The notes under the pieces: model-generated
The model's input: the letters and a program-made list of their open reading frames with translations, nothing else
Database searches by the model: none
Told to the model about the DNA's origin: nothing
Source: Desulfobacterales bacterium
Lineage (GTDB): Bacteria; Desulfobacterota; Desulfobacteria; Desulfobacterales; Desulfobacteraceae
Assembly (NCBI GenBank): GCA_023143455.1
Contig: JAGLHT010000007.1
Span: forward strand, 1-64,000
Reading direction: 5' to 3'
DNA: 64,000 nt
Shown here: in pieces, positions 923-11,473 of the stretch
Position numbering within the stretch: position 1 is the stretch's first letter
Layout of the letters: each line of letters begins with the position of its first letter
Program-made: the position numbers and the translations under genes

Positions 923-3900
923 TTAGTAGTCTTTTTTATTTTCAACTGCAATGATTATATCATCATTAATATTAGAAGTTCTTTTTAATATTATTTCCAA
1001 ATAATCACTGCCAATTTTTTGCCTTAAATTCTCTATGTTTTGAATTAATTCGTTATATGACTCTTTGTTTATCTTGCCTGGTAATACAAGTTTTCTTAAT
1101 GTATATTTTGGCAATGTTTTGTATTTCTTTATGTCTTTTAGCAAAGTGTCAATAAACGATATCAGTATTTGATTCAATTCATCTTTCTTTTGTTTTAGCA
1201 AAGATTTTAAACTGTTTGTTGCTTTTTTTTCCAATGCAATTTCAGAGCTTCCAGATTTATACTGGGGTTTATATCCTTTAATTTTTTCATAAGCCTTCCA
1301 GAATTGTTTACTCAATGGGAGCCTGTTTTCATCATAAGAACATTTTACCAAATCAAATAATTCCTGGAATATTTTTTCTGAAATTTTAATTTTACCAGTT
1401 TCATATTTTGCAATTACGGAAAAAAGAGCCATCCCTTTTTTTCTTAAAACAATTGTATTGTTTTCTTTAAATTTTTTTGCTGTTTTAGTTCGGTTTGGAA
1501 ATTCTTTAATCCTTTCTAAAACTTCGGGGTGTTCTTCTTGTATTTTGTTAAACTCATTTCTCACAACAGTTACTATATTCAAATCATCATCTTCATCAGG
1601 ATTTGAGTTTATCTTTTTAAATAAACCACTTGCTGTTGGTTCTTCGTCAGGATCAAATATTTTTGAATCTTCGCCCAGTGCATTATGAATTAAAAACATT
1701 TTCTGTTCTGCAATTTCTCGTATTTTTATATGACCCGCACCTTGCTCTGTAGGGAAGAGATTATAAATATGAAGCTCATCAAATACTTTTGTGCCAATAC
1801 GATTGATACGCCCCACACGCTGGATTACTCTTGTTGGGTTCCATGGTATATCGTAATTTATTATCAATCCTGCCCTGTTTAAGTTAACTCCTTCTGAAAG
1901 TTTATCACTTGTGACCAAAACATCATAATCAGTGTTTTGATCCTTGTATTGTGCATTAAAATTAGAATCTAATTCAACTGCAAACTTTTTTGTTATGGTG
2001 CCATCACAAAATAAAACTCTACCAAGCAACTCTTTCTGGAAATACTCTTTTAAATGGCGCACTGTATCAGCATACTCAGAAAATACAATAATTTTTCTTT
2101 TTGGATTTTCTCCTTTGCTTAAAACTTCTTTTACTATTTTTAATACTTTATTGCGCTTGGGGTCATTATTAACCAGATTTAGTGTTGTAATCTCATTTTG
2201 AATTTGCTCAAACAGAGCAATATCATTATCTATATCCTGTAAAAATTTATCTTTAAACTTAAATTTGTCAATTTTATAAATTTTTGTATGCTTTGGAGTG
2301 GTTTTTCCTTTGGCATTTTTTTTAAATTCTTCCAATGCCTCTTCAATAGCTTCCAATGTAAAATCAACTGCTTCATCATCATCGTTGTAGATAGAATCTA
2401 TAACTTTACGGTCTAAAATATATTTTCCTGAACTTTCAATAAATGATTTAACCATTTTATGTGTTCGTAAAAACCGTTTTATGCTTTTATCAAATGCACC
2501 AAAAGAACTTTCAAATCGTTTTACCAACAATCTACGCATGAAATCGAATAAATTGCGCTGTTGCAGGAAAGCTCTGTTTGTTTCTTCATCTTTTTTGCTT
2601 TTGGGCTTAGCTTCATATTCAAACGGTCTATAGATAGAGCCTTTAAACAACCCGTCTTCACTGAAATAATCCTGAATTATTCTATCATAAAATTCTGATT
2701 GTTCTTTTGATAATTTATAAAATAATTCTTTCGGGTCTTTCACTTGTGAAAGGGTTTGTATCTCTTTTTTATATTCAAAATCACTTTTCAAGTCTAATCG
2801 GTTTCGCCTGATAATTACAGGTGTAATAACATTTTTTATATCATTTGCCATTAAAGCAACATTGTCTTTTACAAGAGCAATGTCTACAGGTGGTTTCTCA
2901 CCAAACATTTTAGTATAGAGTTTCTCAGCTTTTATTCTTTTTTCCTGATTTGAAGAATTGTAATTTTTTAGAATAAAAGAAAGATTTCTAAATCTATAGT
3001 TATATGAATTAAATCTGCCTTCTAAATCAGGCTCAATGGTAATGGCCGATTGTCCGGGAACAATAAATAATTTAAGAAGTGAAAAGATATCCGCAGGGGA
3101 ATTGTTAAAAGGCGTTGCTGTTAGTAAAATCACTTGCTTCCCTCTACAAATATCTGTCAACGCTTCATAAGCAGAAGTGTCTTGATTCCGAAATTTATGC
3201 ACCTCATCTACAATCACTACTTCATATTCCAAATTATTTTTACTAATTGATTCGGCTACAGCTTCAAGGTTACCGGAACTATCAATATCCCAATTATATA
3301 ATTTAAATTTATTCCAATATTCCCACCAACCTGAATTTTCTTTTTTATCTCCTATTAATCCAGGCGGGCAAAGGATTAAACCTCTTTTTCCTAACTGGTT
3401 TGCTATGAGTGATGCAATGACCGATTTACCCAGACCAACCACATCGGCAATAATAACACCATTATAGGTTGAAATAATATTCAATGCCTGATTTACAGCA
3501 TCTATCTGATAGGTATATTTTTCAAAGCCGTTATCTTCAAGAAGACGCTCTAAATATGAATTGATTTTTTTATTTTCAAGCAGGTTAATATAAGTCTTTA
3601 AGATATAAGCATAAGCTTCAAAAGGAGTTATTAAAGAAGATTGTGTTTTGTTTTTTAAAAATTGGACAATTACCTGCTTGCCGTTGGGGGCTTCTGTTAT
3701 TGGTATGGCAGATTGCCAAAGTTCGTCAAAATAATCTTCTGCTGTTTCAAAACCATAATCTCTAATTTCAACATTGAACTCTTCCTGTTTGCGTAAACCT
3801 GCTTTGGTAAGGTTACTGCTCCCTGTTATGAATTGACCTTTTGTATTAAATAAGTCTTGAAATTGGCTGTCCAACGTAAATATATAAACCTTTGCATGAT

Positions 3901-4297
3901 TAGGATTAAGCGTTTTTTTAATTATCAGCCGCCCATCTTCTAAAAGCTTAATGAAAAATTCTATTTGATTATAAAACTCTTCATTATCCATTTCCGCATT
4001 GTTTAGAGCATAACCAAGGGATTTAATAAATTGTGAGAAGTGCTCTTCCCTGCTTAAATTATCATCTTCATTCTCGACCTCAATAACACCTGACAGATAT
4101 TTATCAACTTGCAGCCCAACCAATATTCTTAAAACTATATTCTCGTTTTTTTGTAGACTTTTATAGATTTCCTGCCAACCGGAAAAATAAAAGAAACCCA
4201 CAAGAAATTTTAATTCTTTACTTGCCTTTATCAGCTTTTGCAAACGTTCCTTTAAGGTTATACTTTCTTGTGAATTAGTTATAAAATTATTATTCAT
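923..4297 (-). CDS. PLD-nuclease / SNF2-type DEAD helicase fusion (defence or restriction protein)
   Basis: A 1124-aa cytoplasmic protein. Residues 1-200 are a phospholipase-D-like nuclease domain with a single HKD half-site: NHAKVYIF (H134, K136) and GSSNLTKAG (159-167). Next is an SF2 helicase of the SNF2/HepA kind: Q-motif region at 261-268, Walker A GLGKS (288-292), DEVH box (364-367), TATPFNNS (393-400), and the C-terminal lobe with SEGVNLNRAG (801-810) and QRVGRINRIG (826-835). The last ~280 residues are helical and Lys/Glu-rich with no motif I recognise. The family is known from restriction-like loci as a DNA translocase with an attached nuclease. It is the last gene of a tight operon, 2 bases after the BRO-N gene, and visibly A+T-richer than the housekeeping genes nearby, suggesting transfer. 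Confidence 0.85.
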   Translation of the reverse strand: MNNNFITNSQESITLKERLQKLIKASKELKFLVGFFYFSGWQEIYKSLQKNENIVLRILVGLQVDKYLSGVIEVENEDDNLSREEHFSQFIKSLGYALNNAEMDNEEFYNQIEFFIKLLEDGRLIIKKTLNPNHAKVYIFTLDSQFQDLFNTKGQFITGSSNLTKAGLRKQEEFNVEIRDYGFETAEDYFDELWQSAIPITEAPNGKQVIVQFLKNKTQSSLITPFEAYAYILKTYINLLENKKINSYLERLLEDNGFEKYTYQIDAVNQALNIISTYNGVIIADVVGLGKSVIASLIANQLGKRGLILCPPGLIGDKKENSGWWEYWNKFKLYNWDIDSSGNLEAVAESISKNNLEYEVVIVDEVHKFRNQDTSAYEALTDICRGKQVILLTATPFNNSPADIFSLLKLFIVPGQSAITIEPDLEGRFNSYNYRFRNLSFILKNYNSSNQEKRIKAEKLYTKMFGEKPPVDIALVKDNVALMANDIKNVITPVIIRRNRLDLKSDFEYKKEIQTLSQVKDPKELFYKLSKEQSEFYDRIIQDYFSEDGLFKGSIYRPFEYEAKPKSKKDEETNRAFLQQRNLFDFMRRLLVKRFESSFGAFDKSIKRFLRTHKMVKSFIESSGKYILDRKVIDSIYNDDDEAVDFTLEAIEEALEEFKKNAKGKTTPKHTKIYKIDKFKFKDKFLQDIDNDIALFEQIQNEITTLNLVNNDPKRNKVLKIVKEVLSKGENPKRKIIVFSEYADTVRHLKEYFQKELLGRVLFCDGTITKKFAVELDSNFNAQYKDQNTDYDVLVTSDKLSEGVNLNRAGLIINYDIPWNPTRVIQRVGRINRIGTKVFDELHIYNLFPTEQGAGHIKIREIAEQKMFLIHNALGEDSKIFDPDEEPTASGLFKKINSNPDEDDDLNIVTVVRNEFNKIQEEHPEVLERIKEFPNRTKTAKKFKENNTIVLRKKGMALFSVIAKYETGKIKISEKIFQELFDLVKCSYDENRLPLSKQFWKAYEKIKGYKPQYKSGSSEIALEKKATNSLKSLLKQKKDELNQILISFIDTLLKDIKKYKTLPKYTLRKLVLPGKINKESYNELIQNIENLRQKIGSDYLEIILKRTSNINDDIIIAVENKKDY

Positions 4298-4299
4298 CT

Positions 4300-5142
4300 T
4301 TATCTCTTTTTTTGTTTTTTCTCCAACTTCTTCTGTGCTTCAGGCTCAGCTAAATAGTTCTCAGAAGATGACACATTTTTCCCGGATTCTATCTCTAATT
4401 TTTTTCGGGCATCACCAGCAATTTTTCCGCCTCTGTTAGCCGCATCCTTATTTTCATCAAATCCTTGTGAATCTTTGTTGCGGGTAATTTCAGTTGTAGC
4501 AGCTTCTCCAAGCATTGAAAATATCAATTCTAAATCTGTATAATGATCCCGTAGATTTTCTCTTTTTAGACCTTTAAATTTTTTATATTCAGATGGTGTC
4601 ATTCCAAATGTGGCTTTGGATATTTCAGCAGTTAAAATAGCATAATCTATTTGTTCTTTAATACCACGGTCTTGCCATTCATCAGTAAGTTCCTCCCTGA
4701 TGGCAATGCCGCGCATGCGCTTTTCAATCCAATCATCAGAATACCCTTTGGCTTTATATAGCGCCCGGGTACGTTTTGTAGCAAGCTCAGGATCTTCAAT
4801 TTCCTGAATACGTTCATATCCCACTTTTGCCAACCATCGCTTAAACGGCTCTGCCTTGGGTGAAGGAATGGATTGGATAAGCCTGAATATTCCTTCTGTA
4901 TTTGCACAATCTGTTTTATACTTTTTCCCATCGCTCGCTTCTAATTTCAGTCCGTGACAATTTGTCACGACCTTACTTCCTTCTGTTTTTAATCTTTGTT
5001 TTAATTTCCTCCAATATGCTCCTGCATCACGGCTATCAGTTAATACTGCACAAACATCTATTACAGAAAACCACCATTCATCATTATAAATAATTTTTCT
5101 AATCTCTTTTTTTTTAAAAACGGCTATTTTTGATTTATCCAT
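4300..5142 (-). CDS. BRO-N / DinD-like antirepressor-type protein
   Basis: A 280-aa protein. The start chosen is ATG 5142 (MDKSKIAVF), about 10 bases after GAGGAA, not the upstream in-frame ATG at 5163. Residues ~5-105 form a BRO-N domain as in phage antirepressors (WWFSVIDVCAVLTDS, an EGIFRLIQSIPSP turn and FKRWLAKVGYERIQEI). The C-terminal half resembles DNA-damage-inducible protein D (MRGIAIREELTDEW, then GGKIAGDARKKLE). It sits inside the operon: its start overlaps the methylase stop by 8 bases and its stop is 2 bases before the helicase start. BRO-N proteins bind DNA and control phage switches; here it may regulate the operon or sense phage or DNA damage. That role is inference. Confidence 0.8.
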   Translation of the reverse strand: MDKSKIAVFKKKEIRKIIYNDEWWFSVIDVCAVLTDSRDAGAYWRKLKQRLKTEGSKVVTNCHGLKLEASDGKKYKTDCANTEGIFRLIQSIPSPKAEPFKRWLAKVGYERIQEIEDPELATKRTRALYKAKGYSDDWIEKRMRGIAIREELTDEWQDRGIKEQIDYAILTAEISKATFGMTPSEYKKFKGLKRENLRDHYTDLELIFSMLGEAATTEITRNKDSQGFDENKDAANRGGKIAGDARKKLEIESGKNVSSSENYLAEPEAQKKLEKKQKKR

Positions 5143-8100
5143 AATTTTCATATTCCTCTGCACTCATTTCAAATTCAGACTCTATTATTTTAACTTCGTC
5201 ATAAGTTAAATTGTATAATTTATAAACCATTAAATCTATTTGATTTTCTTCTGAAGTTGTATCTTCACCTGTTTCTTTTTTGGTTATGATTTTATTTACT
5301 AAAATTTCAAAGGGTTTGATATCTGTTACCTTTTTTATTGGAATACTTAATAATGGCTCTTTATCTATTTGGTAATTATCACCTTGCATTTTCCCTTTAT
5401 ATTTTAACCAAAAAGCACATAACTTTGAATTTAATAATCCTGTAAGAATCTTTTGATTTAACCGATTTGTTTTTATTACATAAAATGTTGCTGACACATA
5501 ACAATTAAAATCTGTATATGTAAACACAGGTTCTCTTGAACACTTTCTTTGAACAATAATTTTTTCACCAATAAAAAATTGTCCATCTCTTGCTCTGTGC
5601 AACCCATATGGTTTATTATCTGAAGTAATAACGTTTTTAAATTTATCTAAATGATTTTTTATATTTGGGTATGGTAATACTTCTTCCAAATTTTTAAATT
5701 TAGAAGAAGTATAAATTAACCATTCTGTATTCTGGGAGTTAGCATAATATCTCTGAAAGTTTTTTGTTGAAAAATACGGCCTAATTAATTTTTTTTCTTT
5801 TTCAGTCAAACCTAAAGAGAGTAACTCCTCGTTTGATAATGCAAAGATTCCATCTCCGATATTGAAATTATTATCCAGAATTGGCATCATTTTTTTGTTC
5901 ACATATTCATGGTGTGAATGAATACCATTTGCTACTTCTTTTTCGTTAAAGGAAAAATTAGATTGGCTTTGTATTTTATTCAAAATAGAACCTATCTCAT
6001 TTTTTAAAAAATGAATAGGTTTATCTATCATTGCATCTCGGTTAATCACTGTTCCAAAATATTCAAATTTTGTGCTCTCTACTTTTTTTAAAAAAAGTTC
6101 CAACTCTGATCGCAAAATGTTTTTATCTAAAATTTTTGAGTATTTAGTTAAATATTCTTTTTTTTCTTTTGTTTTTTGTAAAAACATTACCATTGTTTGA
6201 ATACCTGCACTTTCAAAAATTTTAAAATCTCCAAAATCAATAAACTCCTTGATGTTCGTTTCTTTTAAAACTTTATTTCTGAATTTTGATGCCCCCGCAT
6301 TTGTTATCCAATTGTTTGTTGCAATAAAAGATAATATTCCTTTATTTTTTCTTAAAATATCAATTCCTTTACAGCCAAAAAGATACCAGATATCCATCTT
6401 CCCTTGATAGCATTCTTTGTCTTTATTTCCATCAAATGCTGATTTATCAGTGTATTCCTTAATATACGGTGGATTCCCAATCACAATATCAAACCCATCT
6501 TTTTGTGAAAATACTTCTGCAAAATAGATATCCCATAAAAAGAAATCTTTCGGTTTTTGTCCTTGTGTATAGGCAATTAAATCTTTCTCTACCTGTTCGA
6601 TATCAAAGCCAAGTTTCCTTGTTAATTTTTGTTTTTCTTTGATAATATATTCTTTTCTTTGTTCCTTTTTAGGAATTTGTTTTGCTTTGTTTTCAATTGC
6701 TTTTAAGTGCGGTATGTGTTGGTTTATCTTTTCTTGAAAAATTTTTAAAATAATTTCTTCAATTTTGTTGCGAAGTTGTTTTTTGTTTTCATTATCTGCT
6801 TCATTTTGATATTCGTTTTTCAATTCTTCAAAATCTTTGATAAGTGGCTTATAGGGATCGTCTATATCAAACAAAGAATTTTCAGTTGGTTTTTCTGTTG
6901 TGTTAAAATCAATTCCGGCAAAAGTTGAAATAAGACTATTGCCCTGCATAAGTTTAAAATCAAGATTTGGTAAAGGCTCAATTCCATAATTGTTTTCAGG
7001 TTCATCAATATTAATTTTTTCATCAACAAGTAAAGAGATAAAAAAACGGAGTTTGGCAATTTCCACTGCAATTTGCTGAATATCCACGCCATAGATACAT
7101 TTTTCGATCAGGTAAAGTTTACGTCCATAATCTGCGTTTTTTCCCTTAAATTGTCTGTTAATTTGTTCAATAAATTTTCGTTGTAAAACAGGATCACTTA
7201 TTGATTTTTTAATTCCGTTTATTTGAGACTCTTCCCAAAATGTATTATCAGGATCAAGTTTACCAAGAATAAAAACAAGTTTATTTAGAATAGCCATGGG
7301 AAAAGCGCCAGAACCAACTGCAGGGTCAACAACTCTTAAATCATTTATTAAAATGATTATTTTATGTGTTGTTTCTTGATCAAAAGGGTTTTCCAAACTA
7401 TTTGCAGAGATAAGCGATGTAAGTTTGTTGTCTAAACCTGTAATATTACTACTTAGACTTGTTGTAAAATATTGTTTCAAGCTTTCCGATGTCATATAAT
7501 TGACAATTTCACGGGGAGTGTAAAAACTTCCGGTAGCTTTTCTGGCTGTGGTGGATGTTTCAGGATTATAACTTGCAAGCAGGTTTTCAAAAACACTTCC
7601 AAGCAGTTCCGGGTCAAGTGCAACTTCAATATCATCAGGCTCATTTTCATCAATCGTAAAGTTGTAACTTTTAAGCAAATTGATTAGACCTTGCACTTTA
7701 CAAATTTTATTTTTTTTGCCAAAAAAACTACTTAAATCAACTTGTTGAGTGTCTGAAAAAAACAGGGAATTTGGTATTATCGGCTGCTGTTTCTTTGTTG
7801 CCGTAAATCCATCAATATATTTTCGGTCATCTTTCTTTTTTGTCTTATAATCCAGACACTCAAATAAACCACCATTTAAAAATGGAATTTTGCTGAACAA
7901 TGTTTTAAGTGATTTATTGTCTTGAAATAAATCATGATAACGAAATACATTAGGATTTCCAAAATCCGGGTTGTAACCTTTATGCCCTCTTATTTCACTT
8001 AAGAATCTTCTTTCATTCTGTTTGGTGTTTAATGTGGCAAAAAACATATTTTGCAATATGGCTCTGTAGTAAGTTGGCTTTTCAGGGGAGAAATCTTTTA

Positions 8101-8824
8101 ATATATTATTTATATTGTCTGCATCAAAAAGTTCATCTGGTATGAGATTGCGAACTTTCATAAACCATATAAACATTAGCCTTGTAATGAGCCGAATAAT
8201 TGCAACTTCCCGTCCGTTTGGTTCTTGTTCTGCATCATCAGGAAATTTTACATTATCTATTGCCCAGAAATACCAGTATTGCAGTTTTTCATAGAATTGT
8301 TTTGTAATGGGTTCAACACTAAAGGCTTCTTGAATGCTGTCTAAATCATTAAAATCAGTTTTCGAAATTTGGCTGATAAAAGTCTTATTAGTTAATTCCT
8401 TACTAACAAAATATGTATATCTCTTAAAATCTGTAAACTCTCTTTTTGCCCCAAGAAAGTTAGCCCGAATTAAACTAAAACGAAAATTACCATTATCATC
8501 ATAAAAAATAAAAAATGCAGCGTCCTTATTCTCTTCTTTCAGGATTTTCTTGGCAATTTCAAATTGTCTTTTTTTTCCTGTTTTATTTGTAAGTTTTGCT
8601 AACGTTTTTGCAGTAATAACGAGTAAGTCATCAGAATTTAATAGATCGGCTTTACCAATTTTGACAATACTTTTATAATTATCAGCTATATTTTCATTGT
8701 CTTCAAACAGATACGCATAATCTTCTTCATCAGTTTTGAATGAATTAATTCTTTGTCTGAAAAATTGTTCCAGTTTATCAACTGAAAAATCCGTAATTAA
8801 ATAGTTTAAAATATCTTTTATCAT
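5135..8824 (-). CDS. Eco57I-like N6-adenine DNA methyltransferase (type IIG-like)
   Basis: A 1229-aa protein. The N-terminal ~410 residues follow a layout common in Eco57I-type enzymes, including LTNKTGKKRQFEIAKKIL and FFIFYDDNGNFRFSLIRANF. TGSFYTPREIV (431-441) precedes AdoMet motif I DPAVGSGAF (500-508), and the catalytic motif IV NPPY is at 784-787, as in the gamma-class N6-adenine methylases. The C-terminal ~350 residues look like a TaqI/Eco57I target-recognition region. A nuclease motif at the N-terminus is not clear to me, so cutting may depend on the partner helicase-nuclease. It is first in the three-gene operon. Its Shine-Dalgarno is weak, and the DNA is strongly A+T-rich. Confidence 0.88.
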   Translation of the reverse strand: MIKDILNYLITDFSVDKLEQFFRQRINSFKTDEEDYAYLFEDNENIADNYKSIVKIGKADLLNSDDLLVITAKTLAKLTNKTGKKRQFEIAKKILKEENKDAAFFIFYDDNGNFRFSLIRANFLGAKREFTDFKRYTYFVSKELTNKTFISQISKTDFNDLDSIQEAFSVEPITKQFYEKLQYWYFWAIDNVKFPDDAEQEPNGREVAIIRLITRLMFIWFMKVRNLIPDELFDADNINNILKDFSPEKPTYYRAILQNMFFATLNTKQNERRFLSEIRGHKGYNPDFGNPNVFRYHDLFQDNKSLKTLFSKIPFLNGGLFECLDYKTKKKDDRKYIDGFTATKKQQPIIPNSLFFSDTQQVDLSSFFGKKNKICKVQGLINLLKSYNFTIDENEPDDIEVALDPELLGSVFENLLASYNPETSTTARKATGSFYTPREIVNYMTSESLKQYFTTSLSSNITGLDNKLTSLISANSLENPFDQETTHKIIILINDLRVVDPAVGSGAFPMAILNKLVFILGKLDPDNTFWEESQINGIKKSISDPVLQRKFIEQINRQFKGKNADYGRKLYLIEKCIYGVDIQQIAVEIAKLRFFISLLVDEKINIDEPENNYGIEPLPNLDFKLMQGNSLISTFAGIDFNTTEKPTENSLFDIDDPYKPLIKDFEELKNEYQNEADNENKKQLRNKIEEIILKIFQEKINQHIPHLKAIENKAKQIPKKEQRKEYIIKEKQKLTRKLGFDIEQVEKDLIAYTQGQKPKDFFLWDIYFAEVFSQKDGFDIVIGNPPYIKEYTDKSAFDGNKDKECYQGKMDIWYLFGCKGIDILRKNKGILSFIATNNWITNAGASKFRNKVLKETNIKEFIDFGDFKIFESAGIQTMVMFLQKTKEKKEYLTKYSKILDKNILRSELELFLKKVESTKFEYFGTVINRDAMIDKPIHFLKNEIGSILNKIQSQSNFSFNEKEVANGIHSHHEYVNKKMMPILDNNFNIGDGIFALSNEELLSLGLTEKEKKLIRPYFSTKNFQRYYANSQNTEWLIYTSSKFKNLEEVLPYPNIKNHLDKFKNVITSDNKPYGLHRARDGQFFIGEKIIVQRKCSREPVFTYTDFNCYVSATFYVIKTNRLNQKILTGLLNSKLCAFWLKYKGKMQGDNYQIDKEPLLSIPIKKVTDIKPFEILVNKIITKKETGEDTTSEENQIDLMVYKLYNLTYDEVKIIESEFEMSAEEYENYG

Positions 8825-9545
8825 AAATTATTGCCAATTTCCCAAAACACTACTTTTTTAAATATATTTTAAATCAAACATTTATTTTTTATTAATTTAA
8901 GTTCTTTCCTTATTTATAGTTAGTATAAAATAGGCAAATATTTATAACTTACATTTTCGTATTTTACCAATAATATGTCCTTTTTAAACATAGCACGCTA
9001 TGTTCTACCATCAAGTTATTACACCGATATACATACTATTCAGCTCTACATCTTATCTTCCACAGCTAAAAAAATCATTCTGTAAATTTGTATCAAAGAA
9101 GATAGCGGTTGTAAATAGAACTCAGGTTAAATTTTATACATTAATACCTCTCAAAATAATTAATGACTGTTCTAAGTAAAAGTACATATTTGACAATAAA
9201 ACCTGATTATTTCAACATGTTAAAATATTGAGAGCTCGAATTTTCGCTTTTTGGACTGATAGTCCGTTGTACAAAGTGTGATAATCATGATTAGTTGAGT
9301 AGAGATTCGAACGGGCTTTTTGTAGTGCATCTTTATATGTTTTGTTAAGACTCTTGGTGAAGCCAGGCAAAAATTGGCAATTGTTTGAGACCAAAGGTCG
9401 AGTTTTGCCAATTTTGGCTGGCAAACTTAGAGTTTATCAAAATTTATAAACTAAACGAAAAAAGTCTGTTTGAATCTCGGTCTGATTACATTGATCAATT
9501 TGGTAAATCATTACTCTAAATTTTAAATTATGATCTGTCTCATAT
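8825..9545. other. Gene-free A+T-rich gap with repeats upstream of the methylase operon
   Basis: No convincing gene is present. A short open frame at 9212-9424 (minus) has no recognisable domain and no clear Shine-Dalgarno. Structures seen are a 14-base direct repeat CATATTTGACAATA at 9185-9198 and 9541-9554, an imperfect inverted repeat at 9362-9380/9405-9422, a 7-bp hairpin AGTTTAT/ATAAACT at 9431-9452, and a small GGACT-GAT-AGTCC hairpin. The minus-strand promoter of the methylase operon must lie in the A+T-rich stretch just above 8824, where TTGATT and TATATT-like boxes occur, but I cannot fix it. Confidence 0.5.
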
Positions 9546-9554
9546 TTGACAATA
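9185..9554. repeat. Segment bounded by 14-bp direct repeats, containing an inverted repeat
   Basis: CATATTTGACAATA occurs exactly at 9185-9198 and again at 9541-9554, in the same orientation, enclosing about 340 bases. Inside, GCCAGGCAAAAATTGGCAA (9362-9380) faces TTGCCAATTTTGGCTGGC (9405-9422). The second direct-repeat copy supplies the -35 box of the Nudix promoter, so the repeat may reflect duplication of a promoter or the scar of a small inserted element. No transposase is recognisable in between. Confidence 0.5.
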
Positions 9555-9574
9555 GAATATTTAATCTATATTTT
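9546..9574 (+). promoter_or_regulatory. Sigma-70-type promoter for the Nudix-rhlE operon
   Basis: TTGACA at 9546-9551, a 17-base spacer and TATTTT at 9569-9574 lie 60 bases before the Nudix start. The -35 box is perfect and the -10 box matches at 4 of 6 positions. Placement and spacing fit the plus-strand genes that follow. Confidence 0.55.
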
Positions 9575-9633
9575 AGAGCTAAAGTTTATAAAAATGATAT
9601 TTTTTTAATTGATAAAATTAATTTGGATAATAA

Positions 9634-10242
9634 ATGGAATTAGCACATAATATTTCTTTAGATATAATTAGAAAAGCTGTAACAGAATCAAACCACCCTA
9701 TTTCTCCTGTAAACGGATCTTTTCAAAAGGCAAGTGTACTTGCACTTTTCAGTTATGAAAAAGGGACTGTTTTGCATTTTATTAAAAAAGCTGATGATAC
9801 AAGATACGCATGGAGCGGTCAGATGGCTTTTCCTGGCGGACACACTGACCCTGAAGACAATAATCGACAGGAAACAGCTTTAAGAGAACTTAAAGAGGAG
9901 ATGGGAATAAATAAAAAAAATGTTGAAATCCTTGGATCCATTGGTCATTTTACCACAATACACAACAGAGAGATTAAAGTTTTTATTGGTATATGGAATA
10001 AAAAAGATGAAATTGTATTTGACAGATCTGAAATATCAAGAGTTATACCAATTTCTTTAAATTATCTTGTAAGCCATCATATAAAAAAAGGATTTAATAA
10101 ACAAAAACCTGATAGCTATCATTTGACATATCCTTTTGAGGACGTTGTCATTTGGGGGGCTACTGCTAAGATGATATTTCATTTAATTGAAATCTTATTA
10201 CCTGAAATTAACCAAGTTGTAGAAAGATCACATGAAATTTGA
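9634..10242 (+). CDS. Nudix hydrolase, CoA-pyrophosphatase (NudL/UPF0035) type
   Basis: A 202-aa soluble protein. The Nudix box spans about residues 67-92, with MAFPGGHTDPEDNN followed by TALRELKEEMGI. The PGG..DPED..  TALRE..EE.G form is that of the CoA/acyl-CoA pyrophosphatase branch, which cleaves CoA to phosphopantetheine and 3',5'-ADP. Substrate specificity is inferred from the box alone. The gene ends 11 bases inside rhlE, so the two are probably co-transcribed and translationally coupled from the promoter at 9546-9574. Confidence 0.8.
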   Translation: MELAHNISLDIIRKAVTESNHPISPVNGSFQKASVLALFSYEKGTVLHFIKKADDTRYAWSGQMAFPGGHTDPEDNNRQETALRELKEEMGINKKNVEILGSIGHFTTIHNREIKVFIGIWNKKDEIVFDRSEISRVIPISLNYLVSHHIKKGFNKQKPDSYHLTYPFEDVVIWGATAKMIFHLIEILLPEINQVVERSHEI

Positions 10243-11473
10243 AAAATACCATATATCTGAAAGTATAAAAAAGAATTTGGCAGACCTGGGATTTAAACGT
10301 CCTACTGATATCCAGCACAAAGCCATTCCCTCCATCATGAAGGGTGAGGATGTCATGGCTATTGCCCAGACCGGAACCGGTAAAACAGCCGCCTTTGCCA
10401 TTCCTTTAATTGACAAAATTGAAAGACATAAAAGCTCAAAACGATCCTTGGGTATCAAATGTATTGTCATGGTTCCCACAAGGGAATTGGCACAACAGAT
10501 AGGGGAAGTATTCACCACTCTTGCAAAGCACACTAAAGTGAAAACTTTTGCAATCTACGGCGGTGTAGAACAAGATCAACAGATTAAAAAACTTCAGAAC
10601 GGTATAGATGTGCTGGTGGTTACCCCTGGCAGGATGTTTGATCTGATCCACCAGGGATTTATCAGTTTGAAGAATATTGATACCCTTGTACTAGATGAAG
10701 CTGACCGGATGCTGGATCTCGGATTTATCAAAGATATCCAGGCGATCAAACAAAAGATTAAGCAAAAGCACCAGACCCTTTTCTTTTCTGCCACCATCAA
10801 TAAGGAGATCAAAAAACTTGCTTTTTCCCAGGTAAACTCTTCAGCCATAAGAATCCAGATATCGCCGGATGATCCAGTATCAAAAAATGTATCTCATTTT
10901 GTCATGTTTGTTGAAATGGATGACAAACGGTTTTTTTTAAGAACGTTTATCAATGACAACCCCGATGCCAAAATTCTTATATTTGTCAGAACCCGTGTAA
11001 GGGCAGAACGTGTGGCAAAGGCTCTGGAAAGGGGCAACATCAAAGCTCTGACCATCCACGGAGAAAAAGACCAGCAGGCAAGAACAGATGCCATGAAACA
11101 TTTTAAAAATGATTGGGAAAAAATCCTCATAGCCACGGACGTGAGCGCCCGGGGTATTGATATTCCCGACATTCACTATGTGATCAATTATGATCTCCCT
11201 GAAATAAGTGAAAACTATGTCCATAGGGTGGGACGAACCGGTCGAGGTGTTAAAAAAGGCATTGCAATTTCCTTTTGCAGCGAAGAAGAAAAAAAGCAAC
11301 TGGAAGATATACAAACCTTTTTAAATAAAAAAATCGAAACTATTCCTCTTAGTAAAAAAGAATATACCTTGGTGATTACACCTAAGAATGAACCTGATAG
11401 TGTTTTTGAACTAATTAAGGAACAAGAAGCTTTTGAAAAAAATAAAAAGAAACGTAAAAAAAAGAAAAAATAA
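10232..11473 (+). CDS. rhlE: DEAD-box RNA helicase, RhlE type
   Basis: A 413-aa ATP-dependent RNA helicase of the RhlE subgroup, acting on ribosome assembly or RNA turnover. Motifs in order: Q motif GFKRPTDIQ, Walker A AQTGTGKTAA, PTRELAQQ, TPGR, VLDEADRML (DEAD), SATI (SAT), VFVRTRV-like lobe-two entry, ATDVSARGIDIP and HRVGRTGRG. The C-terminal tail is short and strongly basic (a run of Lys with few Arg), a common RNA-binding extension. The start overlaps the end of the Nudix gene by 11 bases. The G+C level is visibly higher than in the methylase operon. Confidence 0.92.
   Translation: MKFEKYHISESIKKNLADLGFKRPTDIQHKAIPSIMKGEDVMAIAQTGTGKTAAFAIPLIDKIERHKSSKRSLGIKCIVMVPTRELAQQIGEVFTTLAKHTKVKTFAIYGGVEQDQQIKKLQNGIDVLVVTPGRMFDLIHQGFISLKNIDTLVLDEADRMLDLGFIKDIQAIKQKIKQKHQTLFFSATINKEIKKLAFSQVNSSAIRIQISPDDPVSKNVSHFVMFVEMDDKRFFLRTFINDNPDAKILIFVRTRVRAERVAKALERGNIKALTIHGEKDQQARTDAMKHFKNDWEKILIATDVSARGIDIPDIHYVINYDLPEISENYVHRVGRTGRGVKKGIAISFCSEEEKKQLEDIQTFLNKKIETIPLSKKEYTLVITPKNEPDSVFELIKEQEAFEKNKKKRKKKKK

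Follow-up and report, generated by a model that had tools for sequence, protein, structure and literature searches.

Three genes packed end to end in a 64,000-nucleotide stretch of a Desulfobacterales genome (assembly GCA_023143455.1, contig JAGLHT010000007.1, positions 1 to 64,000; this whole stretch is called the window here) raise the question of what functional unit they form. All three are uninterrupted open reading frames (ORFs) on the minus strand, in the order N6-adenine DNA methylase (8824-5135, 1229 amino acids), Bro-N/DinD-like protein (5142-4300, 280 amino acids counted from the ATG; an alternative GTG start at 5163 would add 7) and a fusion of an HKD (PLD) nuclease with an SNF2 translocase (4297-923, 1124 amino acids), which we call the motor. 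The methylase and Bro-N/DinD-like genes have 8 bases in common (5135-5142), and a gap of 2 bases separates the end of the latter (4300) from the start of the motor gene (4297). The original prediction, whose gene order and spacing match these coordinates, saw here a candidate for a distinct, undescribed three-gene system in which the methylase may mark self DNA and the translocase-nuclease cut. Our analysis makes it probable that the locus encodes an ATP-dependent restriction-modification (R-M)-type system whose two core proteins are joined by a single exchangeable accessory.

The recurring motor-methylase pair

The domains first read from the letters (Eco57I, Bro-N, PLD plus SNF2) were all recovered by Pfam, and the residues singled out in them (H134 and K291 of the motor, NPPY of the methylase) are conserved in our alignments. 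The motor has an N-terminal HKD nuclease domain matching PLDc_2 (residues 1-210; 3668-4297, minus strand, as for all features of the locus). Its catalytic HxK motif, H134-A-K136 (3890-3898), is present in all 23 aligned motor sequences that cover the site; the companion GSSN motif (residues 159-162) is found in 22 of them and reads GSNN in locus L192. An SNF2-type motor region follows (residues 211-880; 1658-3667), with matches to SNF2-rel_dom and Helicase_C. Its Walker A and B motifs are intact and conserved, and D285-K291 of the Walker A sequence DVVGLGKS (residues 285-292; 3422-3445) is invariant in a 15-row alignment. Secondary structure and model confidence delimit a C-terminal alpha+beta region (residues 881-1124; 926-1657). 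The structure model (mean predicted local distance difference test score [pLDDT], 81.6) matches SNF2 remodelers and RapA, and RapA is also the best solved-structure profile match; among PADLOC profiles, DrmD, BrxH and C3a139 ("HKD+Snf2") match, C3a139 over the greatest length.

The methylase (5135-8824) belongs to the gamma class and has the Pfam domains Eco57I, N6_Mtase and TaqI_C. Its motif I, DPAVGSG (residues 500-506; 7307-7327), which binds S-adenosylmethionine, has invariant D500, P501, G504 and S505, and motif IV, NPPY (residues 784-787; 6464-6475), is invariant in 10/10 aligned sequences. Beyond the core lies a hypervariable, TaqI-like target recognition region (residues 881-1229; 5138-6184): across ten methylases, mean pairwise identity is 16-24% in the C-terminal third versus 36-46% in the core.

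If the methylase were a self-contained type IIG enzyme, the motor would be merely an independent neighbor. PADLOC does file these methylases as type IIG: its best match is REase_MTase_IIG (expectation value [E], 4e-74), and the methylase of locus L048 matches a type IIG model over its full length at 1201 bits. Against this, the match in the window covers residues 308-1216 and so begins well inside the protein, and no conserved E-x-K was found at the N terminus across the ten aligned sequences, where a type IIG enzyme has its PD-(D/E)XK nuclease motif. The HKD domain is therefore the only evident nuclease of the locus. As the motor gene, moreover, nearly always adjoins the methylase gene (below), we regard a free-standing type IIG enzyme as very unlikely.

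We searched 395 genomes of the same phylum for HKD-SNF2 proteins (E <= 1e-60), found them in 25 and read 28 loci; three further sets of loci were read as well. A pair was scored when a relative of the methylase lay within three genes of the motor on the same strand, and the resulting counts describe sampled collections rather than a census. The pair was present in 23/28 same-phylum loci, directly adjacent in 15 of the 23. Four of the five loci lacking it have motor genes that run off their contigs, and the fifth lies <800 bases from a contig end. We also found the pair in 4/4 loci of a second group, in 8/9 plasmid loci (from Deinococcota, Bacteroidota, Actinomycetota, Cyanobacteriota and archaea) and in 20/24 loci of a viral collection; over all four sets, 38/55 paired loci show direct adjacency. 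The prevailing order is motor then methylase, with the methylase first in the window, in L049, in Thermus, Meiothermus and Nostoc, and on two archaeal plasmids. The recurring unit is the two-gene pair of HKD-SNF2 protein and gamma-class methylase.

In one paired locus (L057, 7179-13875) both genes are split, the motor into 699 plus 431 amino acids and the methylase into 731 plus 384; decay, phase variation or an assembly error is perhaps responsible.

Exchange of the recognition region

The clearest view of how the two proteins may work together comes from two loci, L054 (genome G227) and L056 (genome G100). Over 5630 bases, which take in the motor gene from end to end and the methylase gene to just past NPPY, they are 92.8% identical. 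Identity then breaks off abruptly and resumes over the last 138 bases of the 3' end, at 89.9%. Among the proteins, identity is 94% for the motors and 90-93% for the N-terminal part and core of the methylases, versus 22-24% for the recognition region. As far as the sequences tell, this is the way in which restriction systems change specificity. Because the recognition region was swapped while the core was kept, recognition would reside on the methylase, and the motor and nuclease would follow it. Of all our observations, the swap speaks most strongly for the two proteins acting as one R-M system; together with the conserved motifs and the near-constant partnership, it also lends support to the predicted division of labor, in which the methylase would mark self DNA and the translocase-nuclease would cut. 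As near-identical pairs in related genomes, with the recognition domain cleanly exchanged, the two loci amount to a natural specificity-swap experiment.

In the scheme that we propose, the methylase would read a specific sequence through its C-terminal recognition domain and methylate adenine there as a self mark. At an unmodified site, it would recruit or license the HKD-SNF2 protein, whose motor would run along double-stranded DNA and whose nuclease domain would cut as a dimer. The Bro-N/DinD-like protein would be dispensable for this basic cycle; most likely it would bind ends, nicks or single strands made by the nuclease and alter their repair. The scheme is modeled on known relatives: SauUSI (PMC7913695) and CglI/NgoAVII (PMC4267653) need ATP hydrolysis to cut, and in them PLD nucleases have been proven to drive ATP-dependent restriction together with SF2 motors (PMC7913695, PMC4267653, PMC5737866). 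Several points weigh against the scheme. Methylation, translocation, cleavage, complex formation and the role of the DinD-like protein are all steps that we infer, and the methylase-motor complex in particular assumes a physical association. A clear swap was seen in one genome pair only, and the C-terminal region of the motor might itself recognize DNA.

Which known systems come closest? Type I and type ISP enzymes share the principle of a methylase with a variable recognition domain steering a translocating nuclease, but that nuclease has a different fold, PD-(D/E)XK. They differ further in that the three proteins here include no HsdS, and by Pfam no HsdR with PD-(D/E)XK, and in that a type ISP enzyme unites all functions, from nuclease and motor to methylase and recognition, in a single chain, whereas two genes are used here. 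SauUSI, a type IV enzyme (PMC7913695), is likewise a single chain in which a PLD nuclease domain precedes an SF2 motor; it differs in having its own methylated-DNA recognition domain, in being modification dependent and in lacking a methylase partner. CglI/NgoAVII (PMC4267653) combines a methylase, a PLD nuclease and an ATP-dependent motor, but there the motor is a chain apart from the nuclease, which bears a B3 recognition domain, whereas here nuclease and motor form a fusion and the methylase carries the sole evident recognition domain. DISARM has an SNF2 motor (DrmD), a PLD nuclease (DrmC) and an adenine methylase (DrmMI), with PLD and SNF2 as separate genes alongside DrmA/DrmB. DrmA/DrmB (DUF1998) fall outside the gene set of this locus, a statement limited to the neighbors read, with one flank ended by the contig and no genome-wide search.

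Closest in kind, judging from sequence, are the HKD-SNF2 effectors of the Type-2 BREX-related (BR) and Pbe systems, here found without their ATPases. Type-2 BR systems comprise a DUF499 ATPase, nearly always DUF3780, a methylase and an HKD-SNF2 protein with a RapA-like motor (PMC12839542). They share with our pair an N6-adenine methylase, an HKD nuclease fused to an SNF2 motor and a proposed R-M logic; they differ in that their recognition domain is described as nested in the methylase core, whereas it is C-terminal (TaqI_C) here. Pbe/CxC ABC-ATPase systems (PMC10853773) also fuse HKD to an SF2 helicase, and some of them include a DNA methylase, but no ABC ATPase, DndE-like protein or small disordered protein was found by ORF reading in the genes adjacent to ours (operon and open flank).

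Such likeness raises the alternative that the locus is a reduced BREX-related, Pbe or DISARM member whose ATPase and other subunits were lost or moved. The architecture, shared with Type-2 BR effectors and PbeA, and the RapA, DrmD, BrxH and C3a139 matches speak for it. Arguing the other way, DUF499 (PF04465) had no match in the bacterium's own genome, which is 79% complete, and the DrmD model scores 146 bits on the motor versus an NCBIfam cut-off of 610. No DUF3780 gene was recognized among the neighbors read, the genome as a whole not having been searched for it. Above all, the same two genes regularly occur together across dozens of loci, which marks the pair as a stable state and not a single broken copy. 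We consider a reduced member improbable. Membership of DISARM, BREX-related, Pbe, type I or ISP systems was rejected in each case for want of one defining feature, and ARMADA (PMC12458937) was set aside because it is built on a YprA-family helicase, which lies outside this locus.

The predicted novelty holds in part. Each of the three proteins already has a PADLOC model, and HKD-SNF2 effectors have been published (PMC12839542, PMC10853773); defense profile sets thus matched protein by protein. They gave no full assignment to a named system in the sources searched, and no named system found there covers the pair. The two-gene pair is widespread and compact, and has no name of its own in those sources.

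A mobile Bro-N/DinD-like gene

The middle gene of the locus (4300-5142) encodes a protein assigned to the Bro-N family by Pfam and to PDC-S13 by PADLOC, the latter match being full length (residues 1-278; E, 7e-126). A literature search on PDC-S13 found nothing, nor did we find a paper that describes DinD within a restriction operon. Scanning one genome per species gave at least 576 DinD-like relatives, and we could read the neighborhoods of 74 of the best 80. About half of the 74 loci have no close same-strand neighbor upstream or downstream of the DinD-like gene. In loci that do have neighbors, genes of DNA-cutting immunity stand out: the DinD-like gene lies between mod and res of type III R-M systems, in both orders (L137, 7466-13806; L138, 7155-13182), or adjoins a Res gene (L144); directly after cas12a (L110, 5977-12370); or near Cas3 (L095, L100), an HsdR-like gene (L093) or Cas1 (four loci). 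In Arcobacter cloacae, a DinD-like gene sits between cas4 and cas1 (L042, 8482-11255). By domain, the neighbors include Cas1 (4), N6_N4_Mtase (4), ResIII (4), Cas3 (2) and Cas4 (2). A control set held fewer genes of cutting systems (Cas5, 3; Cas1, 1; N6_Mtase, 1); it was drawn from the same loci, so that their defense-rich surroundings make it conservative.

These settings bear on whether the three genes form a dedicated system of three subunits that cannot do without the Bro-N/DinD-like protein, needing it, for instance, as a regulator or to recognize DNA. The tight packing, with its 8-base overlap and 2-base gap, favors such a system, as does recurrence of the full set in other loci. A DinD-like gene accompanies the pair in five loci, the window, L048, L175, L082 and L113, in three gene orders: it lies between motor and methylase in the window, L048 and L175 (motor-DinD-methylase in the latter two), after the methylase in L082 (motor-methylase-DinD) and next to the motor in L113, where the contig is cut. 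The predicted recurrence of all three genes is therefore real in L048, L175 and L082, but it is confined to few loci and the order varies. Within two genes of the motor, a DinD-like gene was found in only 2/28 same-phylum loci and in 0/37 of the other three motor-searched sets. On a tree of 89 DinD-like sequences, the five pair carriers need 5 changes, compared with a mean of 4.5 for shuffled labels, and the protein of L082 groups with the type III neighbor L144 (support, 97). In L049, whose motor is the closest to that of the window in the phylum search, a DUF6577 plus AbiEii toxin-antitoxin pair fills the slot between methylase and motor (9408-11230). A dedicated system of three genes is unlikely on these grounds, and this part of the original prediction gives way. 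The scattered tree and varied settings, including type III R-M, CRISPR and solo ones, indicate that the DinD-like gene is cargo or an accessory moving among cutting systems; it appears to be no dedicated partner of the pair and to behave as an interchangeable passenger.

What might such a passenger do? The AlphaFold model (mean pLDDT, 87.3) has a DdrC-like predicted fold: six Protein Data Bank chains match at E <= 0.001, all of them DdrC of Deinococcus radiodurans (best E, 4e-7; probability, 1.00), with template modeling (TM) scores of 0.28-0.42, so the domains are placed differently. DdrC is a repair protein that binds DNA, single strands by preference, shields it from nucleases, and condenses and circularizes it (PMC5436757). 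The only family member for which biochemistry was found, in a 2011 study known from its citation in PMC4786428, is Escherichia coli DinD, which PADLOC groups with the window protein under PDC-S13; their pairwise similarity is insignificant, and a close homology was rejected (BLAST E, 0.048; hhalign probability, 4%). Separately, the E. coli dinD product (L227, 3761-4585) matches the PADLOC model Specificity_I PDLC03083 at positions 6-267 of 717, which suggests that DinD-HsdS fusions may exist.

Our simplest guess from the model is that the Bro-N/DinD-like protein may handle broken DNA produced by its companion nuclease. We extend this, tentatively and as a possibility that may well prove wrong, to the family as a whole: a general accessory of DNA-cutting immunity with a DdrC fold, which would bind breaks or single strands, would have been recruited independently to HKD-SNF2 pairs, type III operons (between Mod and Res) and CRISPR operons (by cas1, cas4, cas3 or cas12a), and would block repair of the invader or protect self DNA. 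This proposal faces objections: the DdrC likeness is structural (14% identity; TM, 0.4), a sequence-profile comparison gave no match to DdrC, and E. coli DinD is linked to the window protein only via the PADLOC model PDLC04920 (E, 2e-16).

A DdrC-like accessory beside an SNF2 motor, both of which could act on damaged DNA, would also suit an epigenetic or DNA-repair module with no part in defense. The patchy distribution, the occurrence on plasmids and viral-collection contigs, the swapped recognition domain and the AbiE, OLD and McrBC genes that neighbor pair loci speak against such a module, which we regard as highly improbable.

Surroundings of the locus and meaning of the pair

The operon was described as much richer in A+T than its neighbors, and the difference is real but moderate: 30.6% G+C versus 36.9% for the rest of the window. 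None of 93 other operon-length windows falls below 34.0%, so the operon is the lowest of all. Total G+C of the DinD-like gene is 36.8%, versus 29.0 and 30.8% for its two operon neighbors. Its third-position G+C (0.267) lies inside the range of same-length segments of both, and a separate origin inferred from composition was dropped because this value does not differ despite the difference in total G+C.

On the right, the ORFs read as housekeeping genes: a MutT/Nudix-like gene, a DEAD-box helicase and an anaerobic ribonucleotide reductase pair. The left flank is barely visible, as the contig ends 922 bases from the locus. As first noted, no drm, pgl, brx or hsdS gene was seen among the neighbors read, with one flank ended by the contig. 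An Rfam search for small RNAs gave zero matches.

Some 390 bases beyond the motor gene, at 370-534, nested hairpins make up an element of 165 bases (DNA fold, -65.9 kcal/mol; z, -14.7) that looks like an integron attC site. Contig C17 of this genome holds two copies of it at 98-100% identity (626-790 and 1465-1635), which have a cassette-like gene between them and adjoin a gene with a strong match to integron integrases (TIGR02249; E, 1e-138; C17, 1834-2775). The genome has three integron-type integrases above the family cut-off, on contigs C17 (L217, 1-2790), C44 and C67; next to one of the three lie several attC-like repeats, along with genes similar to those for isochorismatase and HAD hydrolases.

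If our reading holds, the pair would make up a translocating restriction system of minimal composition, the methylase supplying recognition and the motor protein cutting, and would offer a simple relative in which to ask what the extra ATPases add in BREX-related, Pbe and DISARM systems. That DNA-cutting immune systems carry a break-binding protein to manage ends is a testable idea; if true, it would connect phage defense with two families known from DNA damage, DinD and DdrC.

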